Positions 3,064 to 12,425 of a DNA stretch of 24,667 nt are shown piece by piece; within the stretch, counting starts at the first letter, position 1, and every line of letters begins with the position of its first letter. Both the position numbers and the translations under genes were made by a program. Source of the DNA: a virus; the IMG/VR virus record IMGVR_UViG_3300046736_000097, positions 1-24,667 of that record; one strand, 5' to 3'. The notes under the pieces were generated by a model, which saw nothing but the letters and a program-made list of their open reading frames with translations, made no database searches and was not told the origin of the DNA.

Positions 3064-3082
3064 GTTCAAAATGGAAGAGAAA
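3064..3082 (+). repeat. 19-base direct repeat, copy A
   Basis: GTTCAAAATGGAAGAGAAA occurs here and, identically, at 18326-18344. In this copy it lies in the gap between two genes and includes an ATG (3071) that is probably not used, because a better start lies at 3095. Confidence 0.8.
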
Positions 3083-3094
3083 GGAGGGCCGATC

Positions 3095-3487
3095 ATGGCC
3101 TTGGAGAAGAGCATTCTCACAAGCGTCAAGAAGACATTGGGTTTCGACAAGGGCTACACGCAGTTTGACCACGACGTGATCACCCACATCAACACCTGCT
3201 TCTTCTCGCTGAACCAACTCGGCATCGGCCCTCCCGAGGGCTTCATGATCGAGGACGACACGGTCACCTGGGAGGACTTCGTGGACGGCGATCTCAACAT
3301 CTCCGCCATGAATGCGCTCCAGACCTACTTCTACCTCAAGATCCGCTCCTTCTTCGACCCGCCGGAGACCCCGCACCACATGGCAGCGCTCAAGGAGCAG
3401 ATCATGGAGCTCGAGTACCGACTCAAGACGGAAAGGGAGCTGACCAAATGGACAGAGCGACAGTCATCGTTGCCCTCCCTCCCGTAG
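3095..3487 (+). CDS. Conserved phage protein, possible head-tail connector family
   Basis: The start is set at ATG 3095, 6 bases after AAGGAGGG (3081-3088). An upstream in-frame ATG at 3071 would swallow that site. The 130-residue product has the pattern of a family widespread in firmicute and actinobacterial phages: an N-terminal helix (ALEKSILTSVKKTLG), then DHDVITHINTCFFSLNQLGIGP, then YFYLKIRSFFDPP, and a C-terminal helix that lies near the end of the protein. Such proteins are usually annotated as hypothetical or as head-tail connector-like because of size and helical content. The stop at 3485-3487 lies inside the next gene, a 40-base overlap, so translation is probably coupled. The function is unproven. 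Confidence 0.55.
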   Translation: MALEKSILTSVKKTLGFDKGYTQFDHDVITHINTCFFSLNQLGIGPPEGFMIEDDTVTWEDFVDGDLNISAMNALQTYFYLKIRSFFDPPETPHHMAALKEQIMELEYRLKTERELTKWTERQSSLPSLP

Positions 3488-5175
3488 ATGACCGGATCCA
3501 GAAGCGATCCAGTGAGGAGGTCCCCCATCTCACGTTGCTGTACCTGGGCGACGTGGAGCTCTCCGCCGAAGCTGTCCTCTACGTGCAGCACGCGGCAAAA
3601 GAGCTCAGTCCTTTCATGCTTACCGTGGATTACCGCGGGACTCTTGGCGAGGACGAAGCTGATGTGCTCTTCTTCGAGAAGACGGCGTGGGACCTGGACC
3701 GCATTGCGAGCTTCAGGCACCACCTCCTGCTCAACGACGAGATCAAGGCGGCCTACGACGCAGCTCCACAGCACACGGAGCATCCTGACTGGACGCCGCA
3801 CCTCACACTGGGCTACCCGGCGACCCCGGCCCCAGAAGATGACGAAGACCGGAGTCTTTCGTACGTCAACTTCGACCGGATCGCTGTTTGGACCGGTGAC
3901 TTCGAGGGCCCAGAGTTCCGCCTGAAATACGACAACAACGGAATGGACGAGGTGATGGCCATGAGCGATATTTCAACTACAGAGCGAGGCGCACAGGCCG
4001 CCGCCGAGCTGTTCCACTACGGCACGAAGGGCATGAAGTGGGGTGTCCGCAAGGCTGAGCGGCACCGCGAGGTCGCGGCTCGTAGCCGTCGCATTGCCGA
4101 TGGCACCGCATCGAAGCAGGACAAGCGCGATCAGTTCGTCGGCAAGGGGCTGGACGGAGCTGGCGGCAAGCTGGCAACCAGCAAGTATGGCGCGACCAAG
4201 ATCGCCGAGCGACACGAGAAGAAGGCAGCCAAGCTCGAAGCCAAGGTGGACAAGAAGGCCGAGAAGATGGACAAGAAGTGGGAGAAGTCGATCTACACCA
4301 CTTCGAAGGCTGTGGAGGTCCACAACGCCATGGCCGAGCACTTCAACGAGCGGATCGGTGCGGTCAACGACAAGCATCCTCTCGCCAACATATTTGACTC
4401 GCCCAACTCGCCGGAGTCGGTAGCCTACATGACCGAGGTCGAGAGGTTGACCTCACGATCGTATGCCTACGCGACGACGACCGTCCACGGGACGAGCCCT
4501 TCGGGGCTGAAGCGTGCCAAGTACGTTGACGACGACAAGGGCCCTCGCATTGTCGTCACCAAGACCGACGTCCAGCACGCCGAAGAGGACGATCCGGATC
4601 TGATCTTGCTGGTGAAGCCGGACGAGAGCGGCCATATTCTCGAGCTGAACGAAGCCGAGGTGGAATCGGTCGAGCATTCCGGTGAGGCCGGCGCGTTCCT
4701 CGCACACTACGGCAAGAAGGGCATGAAGTGGGGAGTCACCACCACTGACCGCGCATCGCAGCGGACTCCGACTCCGGTCACCACGGCGCAGAAGAAGCCC
4801 GGCACCTACACCAAGGCCAAGGGCGGGAAGAATCTCCCCGCGCACGAGGACGCTATCAACGCCCTCGTCACCCGGCAGAAGGCCAAGTCCAGCACCACTG
4901 ACGCGCTGTCGAACGTGGAACTGCGCAAGGCCATTGAGAGAATGAACCTGGAGAACCAGTACCACAACGCTTCCTTCAACTCCGATCGCCGGAGCAAGGG
5001 GCAGAGGTTCGTGCAGGGTCTCATCGGCAGAAAGCGCTACGGTCAGAAGCGCAAGTACACCGACTTCAACGAGGAGCTCGGCTCAGCCACCAGGACTGCG
5101 GCCGGCTCGAAGGTGGCCAAGACGGCTGCGGACAAGGCAACAAAGGCGGCCATCAAGAAGGTCGCTGGCATCTAG
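3448..5175 (+). CDS. 2H phosphoesterase domain fused to a double KGMKWGV-motif phage protein
   Basis: The 575-residue protein has two parts. Residues 1-160 look like a 2H phosphoesterase: PHLTLLYLG (HxT at 27-29) and PHLTLGYP (HxT at 118-120). This family cleaves or makes 2',3'-cyclic or cyclic nucleotide bonds in RNA or nucleotides. Residues 171-575 carry HYGTKGMKWGVR at 190-201, a Lys/Ala/Glu-rich coiled-coil (about 205-290), a mixed domain (about 290-415), HYGKKGMKWGV at 420-430, and a C-terminal LSNVELRKAIERM segment with a basic tail. The motif is typical of phage proteins encoded near portal and capsid genes. The second part has its own plausible start at 3961. The start used here follows GGAAAGGGAG at 3431-3440. 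The gene could be a natural fusion of an enzyme and a virion protein. Confidence 0.65.
   Translation: MDRATVIVALPPVDDRIQKRSSEEVPHLTLLYLGDVELSAEAVLYVQHAAKELSPFMLTVDYRGTLGEDEADVLFFEKTAWDLDRIASFRHHLLLNDEIKAAYDAAPQHTEHPDWTPHLTLGYPATPAPEDDEDRSLSYVNFDRIAVWTGDFEGPEFRLKYDNNGMDEVMAMSDISTTERGAQAAAELFHYGTKGMKWGVRKAERHREVAARSRRIADGTASKQDKRDQFVGKGLDGAGGKLATSKYGATKIAERHEKKAAKLEAKVDKKAEKMDKKWEKSIYTTSKAVEVHNAMAEHFNERIGAVNDKHPLANIFDSPNSPESVAYMTEVERLTSRSYAYATTTVHGTSPSGLKRAKYVDDDKGPRIVVTKTDVQHAEEDDPDLILLVKPDESGHILELNEAEVESVEHSGEAGAFLAHYGKKGMKWGVTTTDRASQRTPTPVTTAQKKPGTYTKAKGGKNLPAHEDAINALVTRQKAKSSTTDALSNVELRKAIERMNLENQYHNASFNSDRRSKGQRFVQGLIGRKRYGQKRKYTDFNEELGSATRTAAGSKVAKTAADKATKAAIKKVAGI
3949..3963 (+). promoter_or_regulatory. 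Internal Shine-Dalgarno and start codon within the 2H fusion gene
   Basis: GAGGTGAT (3949-3956) matches the core of the canonical Shine-Dalgarno sequence and is followed four bases later by an in-frame ATG (3961). Translation from there would give a 404-residue protein beginning MSDISTTE and lacking the 2H domain. The start resembles that of the related gene at 6959, which begins MSDIVVNS. Spacing is a little short but workable. Confidence 0.45.
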
Positions 5176-5192: not shown

Positions 5193-6959
5193 GTGGATGC
5201 AGCACTGATTGAATCGATTGAACGGCACATGTCTAACACCGCCGTGCCTAAGTACTACGGTCAGTACCGTGCAGCAGTAGAGCGCGGCGATATTCCGGTC
5301 TGCCGGGAGATCGAGATGGAGATGAACCGCATCGATGACCGTATCGATGACCCAGACGTCTACTATGCAGGTAATGTGGTCGATGGGTTCGTTGACTTCT
5401 GCGAAAGGGAGATGACTCTCGCTGACGGTAGCGATCTCAAACTCCTACCCATCTTCAAGGTGTGGGCAGAGCAGCTCTTGGGCTGGTGGCACTACGAGGA
5501 AGAGGACGACTACGACGAGAAGCTCGGCCGATGGGTTGTACGGACCAATCTTCGTCGCCTCATCAACAAGCAGTACCTGATCGTGGCCCGTGGTGCAGCC
5601 AAGTCGATGTATGCCTCCCTACTCCAGGCATATTTCCTCAACGTTGACACCACTACCACCCACCAGATCTGCACTGCTCCCACCATGAAGCAGGCAGACG
5701 AGGTGATGAACCCGTTCAGGACCGCCATCACGCGGTCACGCGGGCCATATTTCAAGTTCCTCACCGCTGGCTCGCTGCAGAACACCACTGGTGACCGGTG
5801 GCTGCGCCAGAAGCTGGTCGCTACCAAGAAGGGCATCGAGAACTTCCTCACAGGATCCATCCTTGAGGTCCGACCGATGTCGATCGACAAGCTTCAGGGC
5901 CTTGGTACCAAGGTGAACACGGTGGATGAGTGGCTCTCAGTCGATATTCGTGAGAACGTGATCGACGCGCTCGAGCAGGGCGCAACAAAGGTGGACGATT
6001 GGGTCGTAGTTGCCATCTCGTCCGAAGGTGTCGTTCGAAACGGCGCTGGGGACGACATCAAGATGGAGCTTCAGACCATCCTCAAGGGTGAGTACATCCG
6101 TGAGGACACCTCGATCTTCCACTACAAGCTTGACAGCGTCGAAGAGGTTGAAGATGAGCGCATGTGGCTCAAGGCCAACCCCAACCTTGGCAAGACTGTG
6201 TCCTACACCACCTACAAGCTCGACGTCGAGAAGGCCAAGAAGGTCCCGGCCACCCGCAACGATATTCTCGCAAAGCGTTTCGGGCTCCCGATGGAAGGAT
6301 TCGTCTACTTCTTCACCTATGAGGAGACGCGGCTGCACAGGGTGCGGCCAAACGCCTACAACGGCGGTCTCTGCGCGCTTGGTGTGGACCTTTCGCAGGG
6401 TGATGACTTCTGTGCGTTCACTCTCCTGTTTCCTCTCCGTAGTGGAAAGTTCGGTGTCGACACTCGTAGCTACATCACGAAGCGAACGCTCGACCTTCTG
6501 CCCGGCGCCCTTCGCAACAAGTACCAGGAGTTCCTCGATGAGGGATCATTGGTCGTCATGGAGGGCAATCTCCTGGACATGATCGAGGTCTATGAGGATC
6601 TAGACCTCTATATTCGTCACAACAAGTACGGCGTTCGCGCCGTGGGCTATGACACCTACAACGCTAAGGAGTTCATGGAGCGTTGGGTCCAGGACTACGG
6701 CGAATGGGGCGTCGTCAAGGTCATTCAGGGAGCTCGGACCGAGTCTGTGCCCCTGGGCGAGATCAAGACGCTCACCGAGGACCGTTTGCTCATATTCCAC
6801 CAGGAGCTCATGAAGTTCACGATGGGTAACGCCGTCACCCTCGAGGACACCAACGGTAACCGCAAGCTTTCGAAGAAGCGGAGAGACGAGAAGATCGACA
6901 ACGTCGCCGCTTTGATGGACGCCTACGTCGCCTACAAGGCCAACAAGGAGGAGTTCTGA
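5193..6959 (+). CDS. terL: Terminase large subunit
   Basis: The 588-residue protein is the packaging motor ATPase and nuclease that pumps DNA into the prohead through the portal. The ATPase domain has an adenine-side segment before residue 120, a degenerate Walker A (ARGAAKSM, 132-139), a coupling region, and Walker B plus catalytic Glu (VNTVDE, 241-246). The nuclease domain carries an RNase H-like set of acidic residues: Asp399 in GVDLSQGDD, Asp487 in GYDTYN, and a final Asp in KIDNVAALMDA (569 or 576). Length and domain order are normal for HK97-like phages. The GTG start follows AAGGGAGGG (5178-5186). Its stop overlaps the next start as TGATG. It is flanked on both sides by genes with KGMKWGV motifs, an uncommon setting for terL. 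Confidence 0.93.
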   Translation: MDAALIESIERHMSNTAVPKYYGQYRAAVERGDIPVCREIEMEMNRIDDRIDDPDVYYAGNVVDGFVDFCEREMTLADGSDLKLLPIFKVWAEQLLGWWHYEEEDDYDEKLGRWVVRTNLRRLINKQYLIVARGAAKSMYASLLQAYFLNVDTTTTHQICTAPTMKQADEVMNPFRTAITRSRGPYFKFLTAGSLQNTTGDRWLRQKLVATKKGIENFLTGSILEVRPMSIDKLQGLGTKVNTVDEWLSVDIRENVIDALEQGATKVDDWVVVAISSEGVVRNGAGDDIKMELQTILKGEYIREDTSIFHYKLDSVEEVEDERMWLKANPNLGKTVSYTTYKLDVEKAKKVPATRNDILAKRFGLPMEGFVYFFTYEETRLHRVRPNAYNGGLCALGVDLSQGDDFCAFTLLFPLRSGKFGVDTRSYITKRTLDLLPGALRNKYQEFLDEGSLVVMEGNLLDMIEVYEDLDLYIRHNKYGVRAVGYDTYNAKEFMERWVQDYGEWGVVKVIQGARTESVPLGEIKTLTEDRLLIFHQELMKFTMGNAVTLEDTNGNRKLSKKRRDEKIDNVAALMDAYVAYKANKEEF

Positions 6960-8296
6960 TGTCGGACATCGTTGTCAACAGTCCTCAGAAGTTCGCCTCT
7001 CCACAGGCGGCTCTGGCGCACTACGGCAAGAAGGGCATGAAGTGGGGCGTCCGCAACGAGGGCGAGTCTGGCCGCGGACGTTCTTCGGAAAACTCAGGAA
7101 CGCCCGAGGAGATGAGCACGGCAGCTCTAGAGCAAGCCTTCGATGCTTTCAACGCCAAGCACTCCACGGAATCCCTCCAGGCCGAGGGAGTGGCGAAGAT
7201 GAAGGCTCAGATCGCCAACGATCATCCGCCTAAGCAAATCTCCGATCGTCGTGTCACCAAAGCTGAAAAGTCCGAGGCTGCTGCGGAAAGATTCCAGCGG
7301 CAGGCAGATGAATACCGGGAGAAGCTCGACGCTGTTGGTGATGCGAAGGGGATTGGCGCCAGCGTCAAGCGAGGTCACTACAACGCGGCGGTTCGAGACT
7401 CTGAGATCTATCGGGACAACGCCCTGAAGAGAGCCGAGCAACTTCGCTCTGGAAAGCTGACAAGCGATCAGAAGATGCTTATCGGTCTTGGTGCTGCGGC
7501 GGTCCTAACCATCGGCGTCGGGTATGCAGCTGGTCGCTATCAGCAAAAGCAAGCCGCGAATTTTGCCCTCAATGAGCAAAAGAAGATCGGCCTCAAGAAG
7601 CGAGACATCGACTTCGAAACCGAGCGGAACAGGACTGAGCACTCATCGCAGTTCAGGTCGATATTTGGTCATGATCCTGACTTCGTTCCTGTTGCAAGCT
7701 CGGAATGGGCCGGAGGCGGATTCTTCGCCGGCTTCAGCAACAAGAAGGCCATGGATCGACCCGAGTTCACGATCCCAAAAGACACACTGTTCCAAAGGCT
7801 CTCCAACCACCCCGAAGACAGCACAGAGTATGGTGTGAACAAGCCTGTTTACTCCACATTCCTGAGCAACGACAAGAAGGTCTACGGTGCTTCCGGCGAG
7901 TTCGGCAGTAAGGGTCTGGCTATTAACTTCACGGCCAAAGGCGACACTCGTGTGCCGAACATCAACACCACGGTCGCACACTTGAAGCAGGTTCTCAAGT
8001 CGAACGCAAATGATCCTGCAAAAGCCGCCTACTGGGACAACAACGAGAATGTGCTTACCGAGTACAAGCAGTTGTCTGGCGGCAGCTGGAGCTCTCCTAC
8101 AGCTCAGAAGTTGTTCACGTCGCTAAAGTCGTTTGGCTACAGCGCGATCGTGGATGACATGGATGCCGGATATTTGGGCGACGCGCCAGTCGTCTTCTTC
8201 GGCGACGCAAACTCAGCCACTCACGTTCCCCGAGGTCCGGACGCCAAGGTCCGAGACGCTGTCGGAATGACCAAACTGTCCGGCAAGTACGCATGA
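6959..8296 (+). CDS. KGMKWGV-motif protein with a possible ADP-ribosyltransferase-like C-terminal domain
   Basis: The 445-residue protein begins MSDI and carries HYGKKGMKWGVR at residues 21-32. A charged helical region (about 50-165) follows. A hydrophobic stretch (LIGLGAAAVLTIGVGYAAG, 174-192) could cross a membrane. The C-terminal domain (about 270-445) has TLFQRLS (Arg280), PVYSTFLSND (Ser299-Thr300), LTEYKQL (Glu368) and a terminal DDMDAGYLGDAPVVFF segment. Arg, then Tyr-Ser-Thr, then Glu in that order recalls the R-S-E layout of ADP-ribosyltransferases, and similar domains occur in phage proteins and secreted toxins. The exact catalytic Glu is not clear. Its place between terL and portal suggests a head-associated protein, perhaps carried in the virion. 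Confidence 0.5.
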   Translation: MSDIVVNSPQKFASPQAALAHYGKKGMKWGVRNEGESGRGRSSENSGTPEEMSTAALEQAFDAFNAKHSTESLQAEGVAKMKAQIANDHPPKQISDRRVTKAEKSEAAAERFQRQADEYREKLDAVGDAKGIGASVKRGHYNAAVRDSEIYRDNALKRAEQLRSGKLTSDQKMLIGLGAAAVLTIGVGYAAGRYQQKQAANFALNEQKKIGLKKRDIDFETERNRTEHSSQFRSIFGHDPDFVPVASSEWAGGGFFAGFSNKKAMDRPEFTIPKDTLFQRLSNHPEDSTEYGVNKPVYSTFLSNDKKVYGASGEFGSKGLAINFTAKGDTRVPNINTTVAHLKQVLKSNANDPAKAAYWDNNENVLTEYKQLSGGSWSSPTAQKLFTSLKSFGYSAIVDDMDAGYLGDAPVVFFGDANSATHVPRGPDAKVRDAVGMTKLSGKYA

Positions 8297-8311: not shown

Positions 8312-9676
8312 ATGGGAGTTCGTAGCCGTCTGAAGCACGCCTACAACGCCTTTCTGAACCGCGATCCAATCGACAGCGTCTCTCCATATTCTGGAGGATA
8401 TGACTCGGAGCTCGGGGCTGGACACGCAGCCAATCCGATGCGAATGCGCTTCGGTTTCTCTGGAGAGCGAACGATCACCTCCTCCATCTACTCGCGCATA
8501 GCGGTGGACTCGGCGTCGGTGGACATTCGTCACGTCAAGAAGGACGAGCAAGATCGCTACGTGGAGGACGTCAAGAGCGGGATGCACCTCTGCTTGAACG
8601 TCGAGGCCAACATCGACCAGTCCGGTCGGGCCTTCCTGCAAGATCTCTACTACACAGTCCTCGAGGGTGGGCACATCGCAATCTTGCCCATCGACATGTC
8701 GAAGTCTCCGAAGAATGGCGGCTTGTTCGACATCGAATCGTGGCGTGTGGGATACGTCGTTCAGTGGTACCCCCGCCACGTTCGGGTGGAGGCCTACAAC
8801 GACAGGACCGGCCGGCGAGAGCAGGTCACGGTCGAGAAGCGTTTCGTCGGACTGGTGGAGAACCCGTTCTACACCGTGATGAACGAGCCCAACTCGACGC
8901 TCCAGCGCTTGAAGCGAAAGCTCGCGCTGCTGGACCTCGTCGACGAGAAGGTCAGCTCGGGCAAGCTCGACATCCTGATCCAGCTTCCCTACCCGATCCG
9001 AGATGAGGGTCGTCGTAAGGACGCGGAGAACCGTCGGCAAGACATCGAGTTCCAGCTCAAGGACAGCGCTCATGGTATCGCCTACATCGACGCACAGGAG
9101 AAGGTCGTACAACTCAACCGTCCGATCGAGAACAACCTCCTGGCTCAGGTGGAGCGACTCCTCGAGCTGCTTTACAGCGAGTTGGGTCTGACGAAGAAGG
9201 TCATGGACGGCACGGCCGAAGAGGCCGAGATGATCAACTACTACAACCGCACGATCGAGCCTCTCATCAGCGCCGTCGCCGATGAGCTCAAGCGGAAGTT
9301 CCTGACTAAGACGGCCCGCACTCAAGGCCACGACGTCGTGTTCTTCCGCGACCCGTTCAAGCTGGTTCCGATGAAGGACCTGGCTGAGCTGGCCGACAAG
9401 TTCACCCGAAACGAGATCGTGTCTTCCAACGAGTTCCGCGGATTCATCGGGCTGCGTCCGGTGACCGACGACCCGAAGGCTGACATGCTGATCAACTCCA
9501 ACCTGACCGTCGACCAGTCGCAGCTACAAGCGCAGCAGGTCAGCGCCAAGCTGGGAAGTCCTGACGACGAGATCGTGGACGGGGAGATCGTCGAAGATGA
9601 AGAGGAAGAGGATCCGTTCGAGGAGGTCAACGCCGTACTCGACGATACCTTCAAGATGTTGGGGGTGGAGGGATGA
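8312..9676 (+). CDS. Portal protein
   Basis: The 454-residue protein fits the HK97-type portal family in length, position just before the protease and capsid, and sequence pattern. It has an N-terminal wing with YSRIAVDSASVDI and a central region with NEPNSTLQRLKRKLALLD. A stem and crown region follows (LLELLYSELGLTKKVMDGTAEEAEMINYYNRTIEPL), and then FRDPFKLVPMKDLAE. Twelve copies would form the ring through which DNA enters and leaves the capsid and on which the terminase docks. The C-terminus is strongly acidic (about 413-440). An almost perfect AAGGAGGTGA lies at 8299-8308. The stop overlaps the next start as ATGA, so the following gene is probably coupled. Confidence 0.9.
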   Translation: MGVRSRLKHAYNAFLNRDPIDSVSPYSGGYDSELGAGHAANPMRMRFGFSGERTITSSIYSRIAVDSASVDIRHVKKDEQDRYVEDVKSGMHLCLNVEANIDQSGRAFLQDLYYTVLEGGHIAILPIDMSKSPKNGGLFDIESWRVGYVVQWYPRHVRVEAYNDRTGRREQVTVEKRFVGLVENPFYTVMNEPNSTLQRLKRKLALLDLVDEKVSSGKLDILIQLPYPIRDEGRRKDAENRRQDIEFQLKDSAHGIAYIDAQEKVVQLNRPIENNLLAQVERLLELLYSELGLTKKVMDGTAEEAEMINYYNRTIEPLISAVADELKRKFLTKTARTQGHDVVFFRDPFKLVPMKDLAELADKFTRNEIVSSNEFRGFIGLRPVTDDPKADMLINSNLTVDQSQLQAQQVSAKLGSPDDEIVDGEIVEDEEEEDPFEEVNAVLDDTFKMLGVEG

Positions 9677-10302
9677 TCGACGACTCCTCTCTCTTCCACG
9701 CGCGCGCGTACGACCCGGTCGCGGCCAGGGAGTACTACTTGCGGACCAGAAAGCTGAAGGGCCGCAGACGAACAACCGCCACCAAGGCTAGTCCTGGCCG
9801 GGGTGGTCGGCGTCCATCAAATGTTCCCGCCGTTCGATCTGGCGGGGCGCCCAACCGATCGAAGACCAAGAGCCGTCGAGCTCAGCTCCTGCAACAGAGG
9901 GAGAATCTCGAGGAACGGCTTCATCGCCTTCAAGAAGTGCTCCAAGAACGCGTCGAAGCGGCCAAGGGTCGCAGCGGCGTCAAGAAGAAGCACGACGAGA
10001 AGGACAAGGCGCCTGAAACCCAGAAGGACAAGGCCGATCGCAACAAGGATGAGAAGTCAAAGAAGCTGACTCCGAAGCAAAAGGCGGAGAAGGCCAAGAA
10101 AGCCAAAGAGGATTACGAGAAAGAGAATCCAACCTCTCTTTCGGAAGACATCGACATCCTCCATGAGCAGATCAAGGACATCCACGCCAAGATAGCGGCG
10201 GCCACCAAGAGGGCTCAAGAACGACGACGGAACAAAGCTGGCTCGAACAACTCAAGGTCCGGCTCCAAGAACCGAAACTCCGACGGACCGCGAGGCCGTT
10301 GA
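9673..10302 (+). CDS. Basic coiled-coil protein, possible scaffold or head-associated protein
   Basis: The 209-residue protein begins with a conserved-looking segment, YDPVAAREYYLRTRKLKGR (13-31). This is followed by a basic Gly/Pro/Arg-rich stretch, a coiled-coil (about 65-100), a long Lys/Glu/Asp-rich region (100-150), a second helix containing LSEDIDILHEQI (156-167) and a basic Ser/Asn-rich tail. Proteins like this, lying between portal and protease/capsid genes, are candidates for scaffolding or internal head proteins, although the capsid fusion downstream may supply its own scaffold. The high charge and low complexity make database matching difficult. It overlaps the portal stop by four bases. 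No enzymatic motif is visible. Confidence 0.55.
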   Translation: MIDDSSLFHARAYDPVAAREYYLRTRKLKGRRRTTATKASPGRGGRRPSNVPAVRSGGAPNRSKTKSRRAQLLQQRENLEERLHRLQEVLQERVEAAKGRSGVKKKHDEKDKAPETQKDKADRNKDEKSKKLTPKQKAEKAKKAKEDYEKENPTSLSEDIDILHEQIKDIHAKIAAATKRAQERRRNKAGSNNSRSGSKNRNSDGPRGR

Positions 10303-10328
10303 CAGACAACCGAAAGGAGACAGCCAAA

Positions 10329-12425
10329 ATGGAAGCCGATTTCTCCGGTTACGCCACAAAGGCTGACATCAAGTGCTCCGACGGCCGGACGATCACGCCG
10401 GATGCGTTCAAGCATCAGGACACGGTCGAAGTTCCGCTCGTCTGGCAGCACAATCACGACAGCCCGATGAACGTGCTGGGTCACGCGATCCTCGAGCACC
10501 GTGGTCCTGACCACGCTGACGGCGCGGGCATCTACTGCTACGGCTACTTCAACGAGACCGAAGCCGGTGTCACCACGAAGCAGCTCGTCCACAACAAGGA
10601 CGTCAAGGCGCTGTCGATCTACGCCAACGGTCTGGTCGAGAAGGCCAAGACCGTGCTGCACGGAGCCATCCGTGAGGTCAGTGTCGTGCTCTCGGGGGCC
10701 AACCCCGGCGCCTTCATCGACAACATTCGCATCGCCCACAGCGATGGCGACCTGGAAACGCTCGCCGAGGAGGCCATCATCTACACCGGCCTCGAAATCG
10801 AGCACACCGCAGGCGACGGCAGCACCGCGACTGTCGAGCACGCGGAGGACGACGGCAACACCTCTGCAACGGATGGGGGCGACGAGGAATCGTTCGCCGA
10901 CATCTACGAGGAGTTCACTCCCAAGCAGAAGGAGGTCGTCCACTTCATGGTAGGCGCTGCTCTCGAGCAGGCCGCGACCGGAGGCGACGAAGACGCCGAG
11001 ACTGGTGTCGCACACAGCGCCGACGGAACCGATGACGCCACCGAGGAGACCTCGGAGGGCGACACCGGCGACGACGACAGCAAGACCGACACCAACACCG
11101 AAGAGGGCGACCTCGCACACAAGGAAGGCGACGACAACATGTCCCGCAACCAGTTCGAGCACGGCAACGCCGGTGGCGACACGCTGACCGGTTCCGACAT
11201 CGACACCTCCAAGAGGATCTCGCACGACGACCTCTCCAAGATCGTCGAGGCGGCGAAGAAGCCCGGCGGCTCCTTCAAGGAGGGCGTCCTCGCGCACGCG
11301 GCCGAGTACGGCATCGAGAACATCGAGCTGCTGTTCCCGGACGCCAAGCTGATGGAGGCCACGCCTCAGTTCATCAGCCGGCGCATGGAGTGGGTGGCCA
11401 CGGTCATCGGCGGCACCAAGCACTCGCCGCTCGCCGCGGTGAAGACCCTGCTGGCCGACATCACCAAGGAGGAGGCCCGCGCCAAGGGCTACATCAAGGG
11501 CAACCGCAAGGAGGAGGAGGTCTTCTCCCTGCTCGGTCGCTCGGTGCGCCCCTCCACCATCTACAAGAAGCAGAAGCTCGACCGTGACGACATGCTCGAC
11601 ATCACGGACATCAACGTCGTCGCCTGGCTCAAGGCGGAGATGCGTCTGATGATCGAGGAGGAGCTCGCTCGCGCGATCCTCGTCGGCGACAACCGTCCGG
11701 CCAACCACCCGGACAAGGTCAAGGACCCGATGGGCGCCATCGACGGCGTCGGCATCCGGTCGATCCTGCACGACGACGACCTGTACGCCATCAAGACCGA
11801 GCTCGACTCCAACGTCGACTCGCGTTCGGCCGTGCGGGGCATCGTCCGGGCCATGGACGACTACCGGGGTTCCGGTGGCGCGACCATGTTCCTGGGTCGC
11901 TCGTCCCTGACCGACATGATGCTGGAGGAGGACCGGTTCGGCCGGCCCCTGTACGCCAACCGCGGCGAGCTCGCGGACAAGGTCGGCGTGTCCAACATCG
12001 TCACGGTGGACCTCTTCTCGGAGTACACCAACCTGTTCGCGATCATCGTCTCGCTCTCCGACTACACCATCGGCTCCAACCGTGGTGGGGAGCTGACCTC
12101 GTTCGAGGACTTCGACATCGATTTCAACCAGTACAAGTACCTGCAGGAGACCCGCCTGTCGGGTGGTCTGACGAAGCCGTTCTCGGCGATCGTCGTGACC
12201 CGCGCTGCCGGCACCGAGGTGCCCGCTGGTGCCACCGCGCCGTCCTTCGATGGCGCGACTGACACCGTGACGATCCCGACCAAGACCGGAGTCGTCTACA
12301 CCATCGACGGCGAAGAGGTCACCGGTGACGTCGTGATCAGCGAGCCCACTGAGGTTCGCGCCGAGGCCGCTCCGGGCTACTACCTGCCGACCGGCACCAC
12401 CCGGTCCTGGTACTTCCAGGTCTGA
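10329..12425 (+). CDS. Prohead maturation protease fused to major capsid protein
   Basis: The 698-residue protein joins two head genes normally separate. Residues 1-140 are an HK97-type prohead protease: a His motif WQHNHD (39-44) and IREVSVVLSGANPG (114-127) with Ser118 as probable nucleophile. Residues 140-270 are an acidic low-complexity linker that may act as scaffold. From about 271 (MSRNQFEHG) the HK97-fold capsid protein follows, ending with a small beta-rich extension (about 630-698, containing TIPTKTGVVYTIDGEEV). During maturation the protease would cut itself free and trim the capsid subunit. Start ATG 10329 is preceded by AAAGGAGA (10313-10320); a TTG at 10299 is less likely. Codon use is very G/C-rich at third positions, typical of a highly expressed gene. 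An internal start exists at 11139. Confidence 0.85.
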   Translation: MEADFSGYATKADIKCSDGRTITPDAFKHQDTVEVPLVWQHNHDSPMNVLGHAILEHRGPDHADGAGIYCYGYFNETEAGVTTKQLVHNKDVKALSIYANGLVEKAKTVLHGAIREVSVVLSGANPGAFIDNIRIAHSDGDLETLAEEAIIYTGLEIEHTAGDGSTATVEHAEDDGNTSATDGGDEESFADIYEEFTPKQKEVVHFMVGAALEQAATGGDEDAETGVAHSADGTDDATEETSEGDTGDDDSKTDTNTEEGDLAHKEGDDNMSRNQFEHGNAGGDTLTGSDIDTSKRISHDDLSKIVEAAKKPGGSFKEGVLAHAAEYGIENIELLFPDAKLMEATPQFISRRMEWVATVIGGTKHSPLAAVKTLLADITKEEARAKGYIKGNRKEEEVFSLLGRSVRPSTIYKKQKLDRDDMLDITDINVVAWLKAEMRLMIEEELARAILVGDNRPANHPDKVKDPMGAIDGVGIRSILHDDDLYAIKTELDSNVDSRSAVRGIVRAMDDYRGSGGATMFLGRSSLTDMMLEEDRFGRPLYANRGELADKVGVSNIVTVDLFSEYTNLFAIIVSLSDYTIGSNRGGELTSFEDFDIDFNQYKYLQETRLSGGLTKPFSAIVVTRAAGTEVPAGATAPSFDGATDTVTIPTKTGVVYTIDGEEVTGDVVISEPTEVRAEAAPGYYLPTGTTRSWYFQV
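11121..11141 (+). promoter_or_regulatory. Internal ribosome binding site and ATG inside the protease-capsid fusion
   Basis: AAGGAAGG (11121-11128) stands 10 bases before an in-frame ATG (11139-11141) that begins MSRNQFEHG, at the end of the acidic linker. Translation from here would give a free 428-residue capsid protein without the protease. That offers a way to make many capsid subunits per protease. It is a prediction from sequence only; the fusion could instead be split by proteolysis. Confidence 0.4.

Follow-up and report, generated by a model that had tools for sequence, protein, structure and literature searches.

A 2H phosphoesterase domain fused to a DUF7211-tagged head-region protein in a relative of soil actinobacterial phages: a probable virion-borne enzyme

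Introduction

Why does a viral gene that lies among head and packaging genes begin with a 2H phosphoesterase domain, could the enzyme be carried into the host cell by the particle, and on which phosphodiester would it act there? These questions are raised by a gene in a viral record of 24,667 bases, which was analysed as a whole and is called the window here. Head and tail genes form a cluster on the + strand of the window. Its closest DNA relatives in the phage collection are phages of Streptomyces, Microbacterium, Gordonia and other actinobacteria, with nearest-relative matches that cover only approximately 10% of the window at an identity of approximately 72–74%. The source phage is a relative of viruses of soil actinobacteria. 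On balance, the gene product is probably a metal-independent 2H phosphodiesterase that is active, sits on a minor head protein, is delivered with the genome and acts on a host phosphodiester. Computation has established the 2H fold with its invariant active site, as well as the fusion and the fixed gene position.

The 2H gene and its neighbours

The gene starts with ATG, with AAAGGGAG upstream, and its start overlaps the 3' end of the adaptor gene by 40 bases. The features of the locus are as follows:

3071–3487, +: head–tail connector/adaptor gene (Pfam PF24829, E 6.5e-34)
3448–5175, +: whole 2H gene, 575 aa, encoding the 2H domain, a tag, a helical linker, a tag and a C-terminal core
3448–3930, +: 2H phosphoesterase domain, residues 1–161 (Pfam PF13563/PF02834; AlphaFold; Foldseek CPDase/LigT)
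3526–3534, +: first catalytic motif, H27-x-T29, invariant in 72 aligned sequences
3799–3807, +: second catalytic motif, H118-x-T120, invariant in 72 aligned sequences
4015–4044, +: first DUF7211 tag, HYGTKGMKWG, residues 190–199, in a low-confidence, probably disordered region of the model
4705–4734, +: second DUF7211 tag, HYGKKGMKWG, residues 420–429, in a low-confidence, probably disordered region of the model
4900–4968, +: conserved LSNxEL core helix of the chassis (alignment of 31 members; phage 1706 orf7)
5193–6959, +: terminase large subunit, TerL (domain and family matches)
6959–8296, +: second tag-bearing protein, 445 aa, with its tag at 7019–7048 (DUF7211, phrog_7502)
8312–9676, +: portal protein (Pfam PF04860)
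10299–12425, +: protease–capsid fusion, member of the head and tail cluster

The second tag-bearing protein, between TerL and the portal, has no named domain, and its C-terminal part has relatives in Streptomyces and Rhodococcus phages. No RNA families, tRNAs or promoters were found in the region, and a comparison with the PADLOC defence families gave no match.

The 2H domain and its active site

The first-pass annotation, made from the sequence alone, had placed a 2H phosphoesterase domain at 3448–3930, and this stretch coincides with the folded domain. The two HxT motifs that it had read 91 residues apart are found as such: PHLTLLYLG occupies residues 26–34 and PHLTLGYP residues 117–124, with 91 residues from H27 to H118. 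Pfam scores lie above both cut-offs, at 37.1 bits for 2_5_RNA_ligase2 (cut-off 27) and 25.2 for LigT_PEase (cut-off 23.3), with a Pfam E-value of 4e-9. When the protein was shuffled 20,000 times, two HhTh motifs spaced 75–115 apart did not arise once.

In a 67-sequence alignment, H27 and T29 are kept in all 66 sequences covering the position, and H118 and T120 in 67 of 67. When seven MuF- or protease-fused forms are added, all four residues are invariant (72/72), and no loss of an HxT residue was found. Further invariant positions (L66, G67, A71, V73, Q108, P117, G122 and W148) suggest that the pocket has been preserved. Comparisons of close relatives give a dN/dS of approximately 0.05–0.18. 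The strong conservation across phages of many hosts could reflect a housekeeping rather than an arms-race substrate.

A sequence profile of the domain had no meaningful match in the PDB, and a fold search was needed. The AlphaFold model, built with 52 sequences, reached a pLDDT of 91 and a pTM of 0.86, and it contains the paired HxT site. Against the PDB, Foldseek gave Arabidopsis CPDase as the best match (E 1.4e-7; identity approximately 18%), with E. coli LigT at about 2.5e-7, indicating a fold of the LigT/CPDase kind. Human Usb1, AKAP18 and viral 2'-5' phosphodiesterases are also among the best 50 of 248 PDB matches. The domain thus shows the hallmarks of the 2H superfamily, an alpha/beta fold with an internal duplication and a pair of HxT/S motifs. 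Within the superfamily, membership of the ThpR equivalog (TIGR02258) was rejected at 22.1 bits, with a cut-off of 65.7. A tie to the anti-CBASS nuclease Acb1 had been suggested earlier and is not supported: the Acb1 model (PF23474) has no match at E up to 1, with a T4 57B control at 2.7e-60, and the fold search places CPDase, LigT and Usb1 closest.

The chassis and its slot between adaptor and TerL

Beyond residue ~160, the protein consists of what is called the chassis here: two DUF7211 tags (HxGxKGMKWG) and a conserved C-terminal helix. The assignment to DUF7211 (PF23847) is clear, with two copies and 68.5 bits against a gathering score of 27. In the helix (LSNxELxxxxxRLxLE), L487, L492, R498 and E502 are invariant among 31 members. 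The full-length model has a mean pLDDT of 73.5 and a pTM of 0.37, and its linker and tags are poorly predicted, so that no claim is made on tag docking.

In metagenomic phages and in those of Streptomyces, Rhodococcus and Gordonia, the chassis occupies a fixed slot, with the adaptor on one side and TerL on the other. At loci retrieved with the 2H domain, nearly every 2H protein carries at least one tag and its gene lies between these two genes. In a sample of tag-bearing contigs, the adaptor–TerL interval holds at least 77 distinct proteins, with the tag in at least 65, the core helix in at least 50 and the 2H domain in at least 11. These counts are lower bounds, as the wrong between-gene ORF was taken at a few loci where the adaptor does not adjoin TerL (e.g., L002, L044 and L066). 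The cargo of the slot differs among phages and can be 2H, GNAT (L151 and L205), both 2H and GNAT, or none; minimal chassis proteins of 114–170 aa reach hardly beyond tag and core and lack an enzyme. The slot proteins of L102 and L197 have a domain without family assignment that is flanked by two tags. In one locus (L153:1854-3452, +), two enzymes share a carrier, in the order 2H, tag, GNAT acetyltransferase, tag and core helix. In another (L126:3920-4411, −), TerL and a tag/core chassis gene flank a separate, divergent 2H-like gene (HMT...HAT; below the Pfam cut-off), which overlaps the chassis gene by one base.

The same gene order as in the window, adaptor–X–TerL–portal–capsid/protease, is found in Lactococcus phage 1706. 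Protein X of this phage, orf7, combines two tags with the core helix but lacks a 2H domain, and is annotated in GenBank as a structural protein, reportedly on the basis of virion mass spectrometry. The earlier view that the 2H domain is encoded in the packaging region and fused to a KGMKWGV protein was right; HYGTKGMKWG and HYGKKGMKWG both belong to DUF7211. That the partner is a likely virion protein stands insofar as it is a head/packaging-region protein with a 2H-less counterpart annotated as structural; to the description of the partner can be added that there are two tags, not one, and a conserved C-terminal helix.

The linker before the second tag contains VQHAEEDD (4570–4593, +), and the protease–capsid fusion contains VEHAEDD (10833–10853, +). 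Linkers of relatives hold more copies of the pattern [VIL]xHA than expected, with 17 observed and a shuffled mean of 1.85. These motifs are possibly sites of the maturation protease.

A second head carrier for the same enzyme

The 2H family is spread over 125 phage records and more than 70 metagenomic viral contigs. A scan of bacterial genomes gave one weak match only. Many members are annotated as "hypothetical" or "RNA ligase". The latter label is not supported by the 2H fold, and this misleading name likely stems from that of the superfamily, 2'-5' RNA ligase. Among the 125 phage records, the adaptor–TerL chassis is used by those members from Gordonia, Streptomyces and Rhodococcus phages that were inspected, whereas for Microbacterium, Arthrobacter and Curtobacterium the product named is mostly a capsid maturation protease or a MuF-like fusion protein. 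MuF followed by 2H is found in Squash gp25, Wilde gp18, Beagle gp25, SilentRX gp19 and OneinaGillian gp22, with some matches below the Pfam cut-offs. In Kithara gp23 and RubyRalph gp25, the 2H domain is N-terminal and the gene lies beside the portal gene, and the chain of Kithara matches head-protein families.

The 2H domain shares one chain with a head protein in both groups, the chassis here and MuF in related members. The tag is absent from all seven MuF/protease-fused phages, whereas five tag-chassis phages have 3–8 tags each, none of them more than a few kilobases from the adaptor–portal region. In a tree, the tag-fused and MuF-fused 2H domains separate with a support of only 0.33, so no claim is made on the number or direction of carrier changes. 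Of the comparative evidence, the strongest sign that the head itself matters, and not merely the neighbourhood, is that a single enzyme occurs on two head carriers unrelated to each other.

DUF7211 as a candidate loading signal

A scan of viral contigs yielded at least 232 distinct ORFs with the tag. Among the matches listed, adaptor, TerL, portal or capsid genes are also present at 112 of 114 tag loci, and all 383 pairs of a tag gene with TerL or portal are on the same strand. When 150 tag proteins were compared, the tag was almost their sole common feature; Pfam found 2H in 15, GNAT in 9, a papain-fold glutamine-deamidase-like domain in 7, and an ADP-ribosyltransferase and a portal in one each. 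Because the tag was the selection criterion for this sample, its counts apply to tag proteins and not to phages in general. One portal (L191:5124-6575, +) has the tag at residue 427, near its C-terminus, which directly links tag and portal. A Gordonia phage protein (L081:9736-11379, +) combines GNAT, two tags and a glutamine-deamidase-like papain fold in a single chain.

These patterns tentatively suggest that DUF7211 is a portable capsid-loading signal of 10–20 residues in phages of Actinobacteria and Lactococcus. It may bring unrelated enzymes (2H, GNAT, papain-fold deamidase-like, ADP-ribosyltransferase) to the head or portal for delivery with the DNA, and the adaptor–TerL slot would then be an exchangeable cargo site. 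The tag would be a directly testable candidate signal for protein loading into phage heads, and would offer a sequence rule to find head-delivered effectors in phages of Actinobacteria and Firmicutes.

Delivery and possible substrates

As the 2H domain is joined to a tagged protein of the head-packaging region, the enzyme is probably particle-borne and may enter the cell with the DNA. In the proposed course of events, an active, metal-independent phosphodiesterase is borne on a minor head protein, and the chassis, through its tag and core helix, would bring the enzyme during assembly to a site in or at the head, next to adaptor, portal and terminase. The enzyme would then go into the cell along with the genome and act at once on a host phosphodiester. 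Judged from sequence and gene order, the location in the virion is likely, and comparison supports it well, because the 1706 counterpart is annotated as structural and the same subfamily occurs on MuF and capsid-protease proteins. Late expression alone could also account for a place near the head genes. Delivery into the cell is likely too, at a lower level of confidence. An enzyme in the virion would be brought rather than made, and able to act before defence signals accumulate.

By analogy, the leading candidate for the substrate, still tentative, is a nucleotide signal made by a defence system, such as a cyclic or 2'-5'-linked oligonucleotide; distant 2H enzymes of phages and eukaryotic viruses are known to degrade such signals (PMC9117128, PMC11410667). 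A 2',3'-cyclic RNA end would come next and is rather doubtful as the substrate class. The corresponding alternative to the whole explanation is an RNA end-processing enzyme or RNase, which would open the 2',3'-cyclic phosphates that host anticodon nucleases leave behind, or trim RNA as Usb1 does. Among the closest folds of known structure are human Usb1 and E. coli LigT/ThpR, the latter an RNA 2',3'-cyclic phosphodiesterase, and GenBank labels relatives as RNA ligases. However, the RNA_ligase, RtcB and KptA domains are absent from the genomes of 12 relatives, a negative that rests on these three families, as the search with PF09511 had no positive control and was left uncounted. The window has no tRNA, the ThpR equivalog score falls far below its cut-off, and such 2H domains were likewise reported to lack ligase partners (PMC5512222), making this alternative somewhat unlikely.

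Counter-defence against CBASS is a narrower form of the preferred explanation, in which cyclic di- and trinucleotides are cleaved by the two-step HxT chemistry of Acb1 in an enzyme that is not homologous to it. Acb1 has an HxT/HxT tetrad (PMC9117128), and a distant LigT-like 2H protein of avian poxviruses cleaves cGAMP (PMC11410667), with 9bkq in the list of fold matches. The Pfam Acb1 model found no match, however; Acb1 is absent from the best 50 of 248 PDB fold matches, and the profile aligned with T4 57B across 35 columns only. This specific form is unlikely.

It is less probable still that the 2H domain serves head assembly only, or acts late in the producing cell and is not delivered on infection. 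The gene does lie inside the head cluster and its chassis counterpart is annotated as structural, but enzyme-free minimal chassis proteins (~114–170 aa) occur, indicating that 2H is dispensable for assembly, and unrelated head proteins carry the same enzyme in other phages. A role as an ADP-ribose 1'',2''-cyclic phosphate phosphodiesterase on NAD-derived products, the activity of the top fold match Arabidopsis CPDase, is very improbable, as fold similarity does not predict the substrate across 2H families, identity is approximately 18% and a KptA partner is absent.

Comparison with known systems

Phage proteins with 2H joined to MuF or portal were proposed in 2017 and 2022 to be head-packaged, injected effectors (PMC5512222, PMC9503650), so the concept is not new. 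These surveys gave RNA or signal nucleotides as substrate options, without an RNA-ligase partner (PMC5512222, PMC9503650). The window protein likewise joins 2H to a head protein and has no RNA-ligase partner, but here 2H is carried by a DUF7211-tag protein encoded between the adaptor and TerL genes, and not by MuF or portal. New are this carrier, its tag and the evidence of variable cargo in one slot; carrier and tag seem to be previously undescribed, and within the literature collection consulted, no paper on the KGMKWG motif or DUF7211 was found.

The window protein belongs to the family of phrog_24711 and ReqiPepy6 gp013-type proteins, which share 2H, tag, core helix and an equal gene slot and are annotated as hypothetical protein, phosphoesterase or RNA ligase; it has both tag copies, whereas Pepy6 has one clear copy. 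Acb1 (T4 57B) is also phage-borne, of similar size and equipped with a paired HxT site, but its histidines (H44 and H113) are 69 residues apart rather than 91 (PMC9117128), and it is a free-standing protein of 152 aa rather than a fusion to a head-region protein. E. coli LigT/ThpR agrees in fold and in having an HLTL-type first motif, and differs in the second motif (HITLLR in LigT, HLTLGYP here). In its logic, DUF7211 is like the capsid targeting sequence of T4, a short peptide common to otherwise unrelated head-packaged proteins (PMC9026906), with no sequence likeness noted between the two. Unlike the T4 sequence, the putative targeting tag can be internal to the chain and present in several copies.
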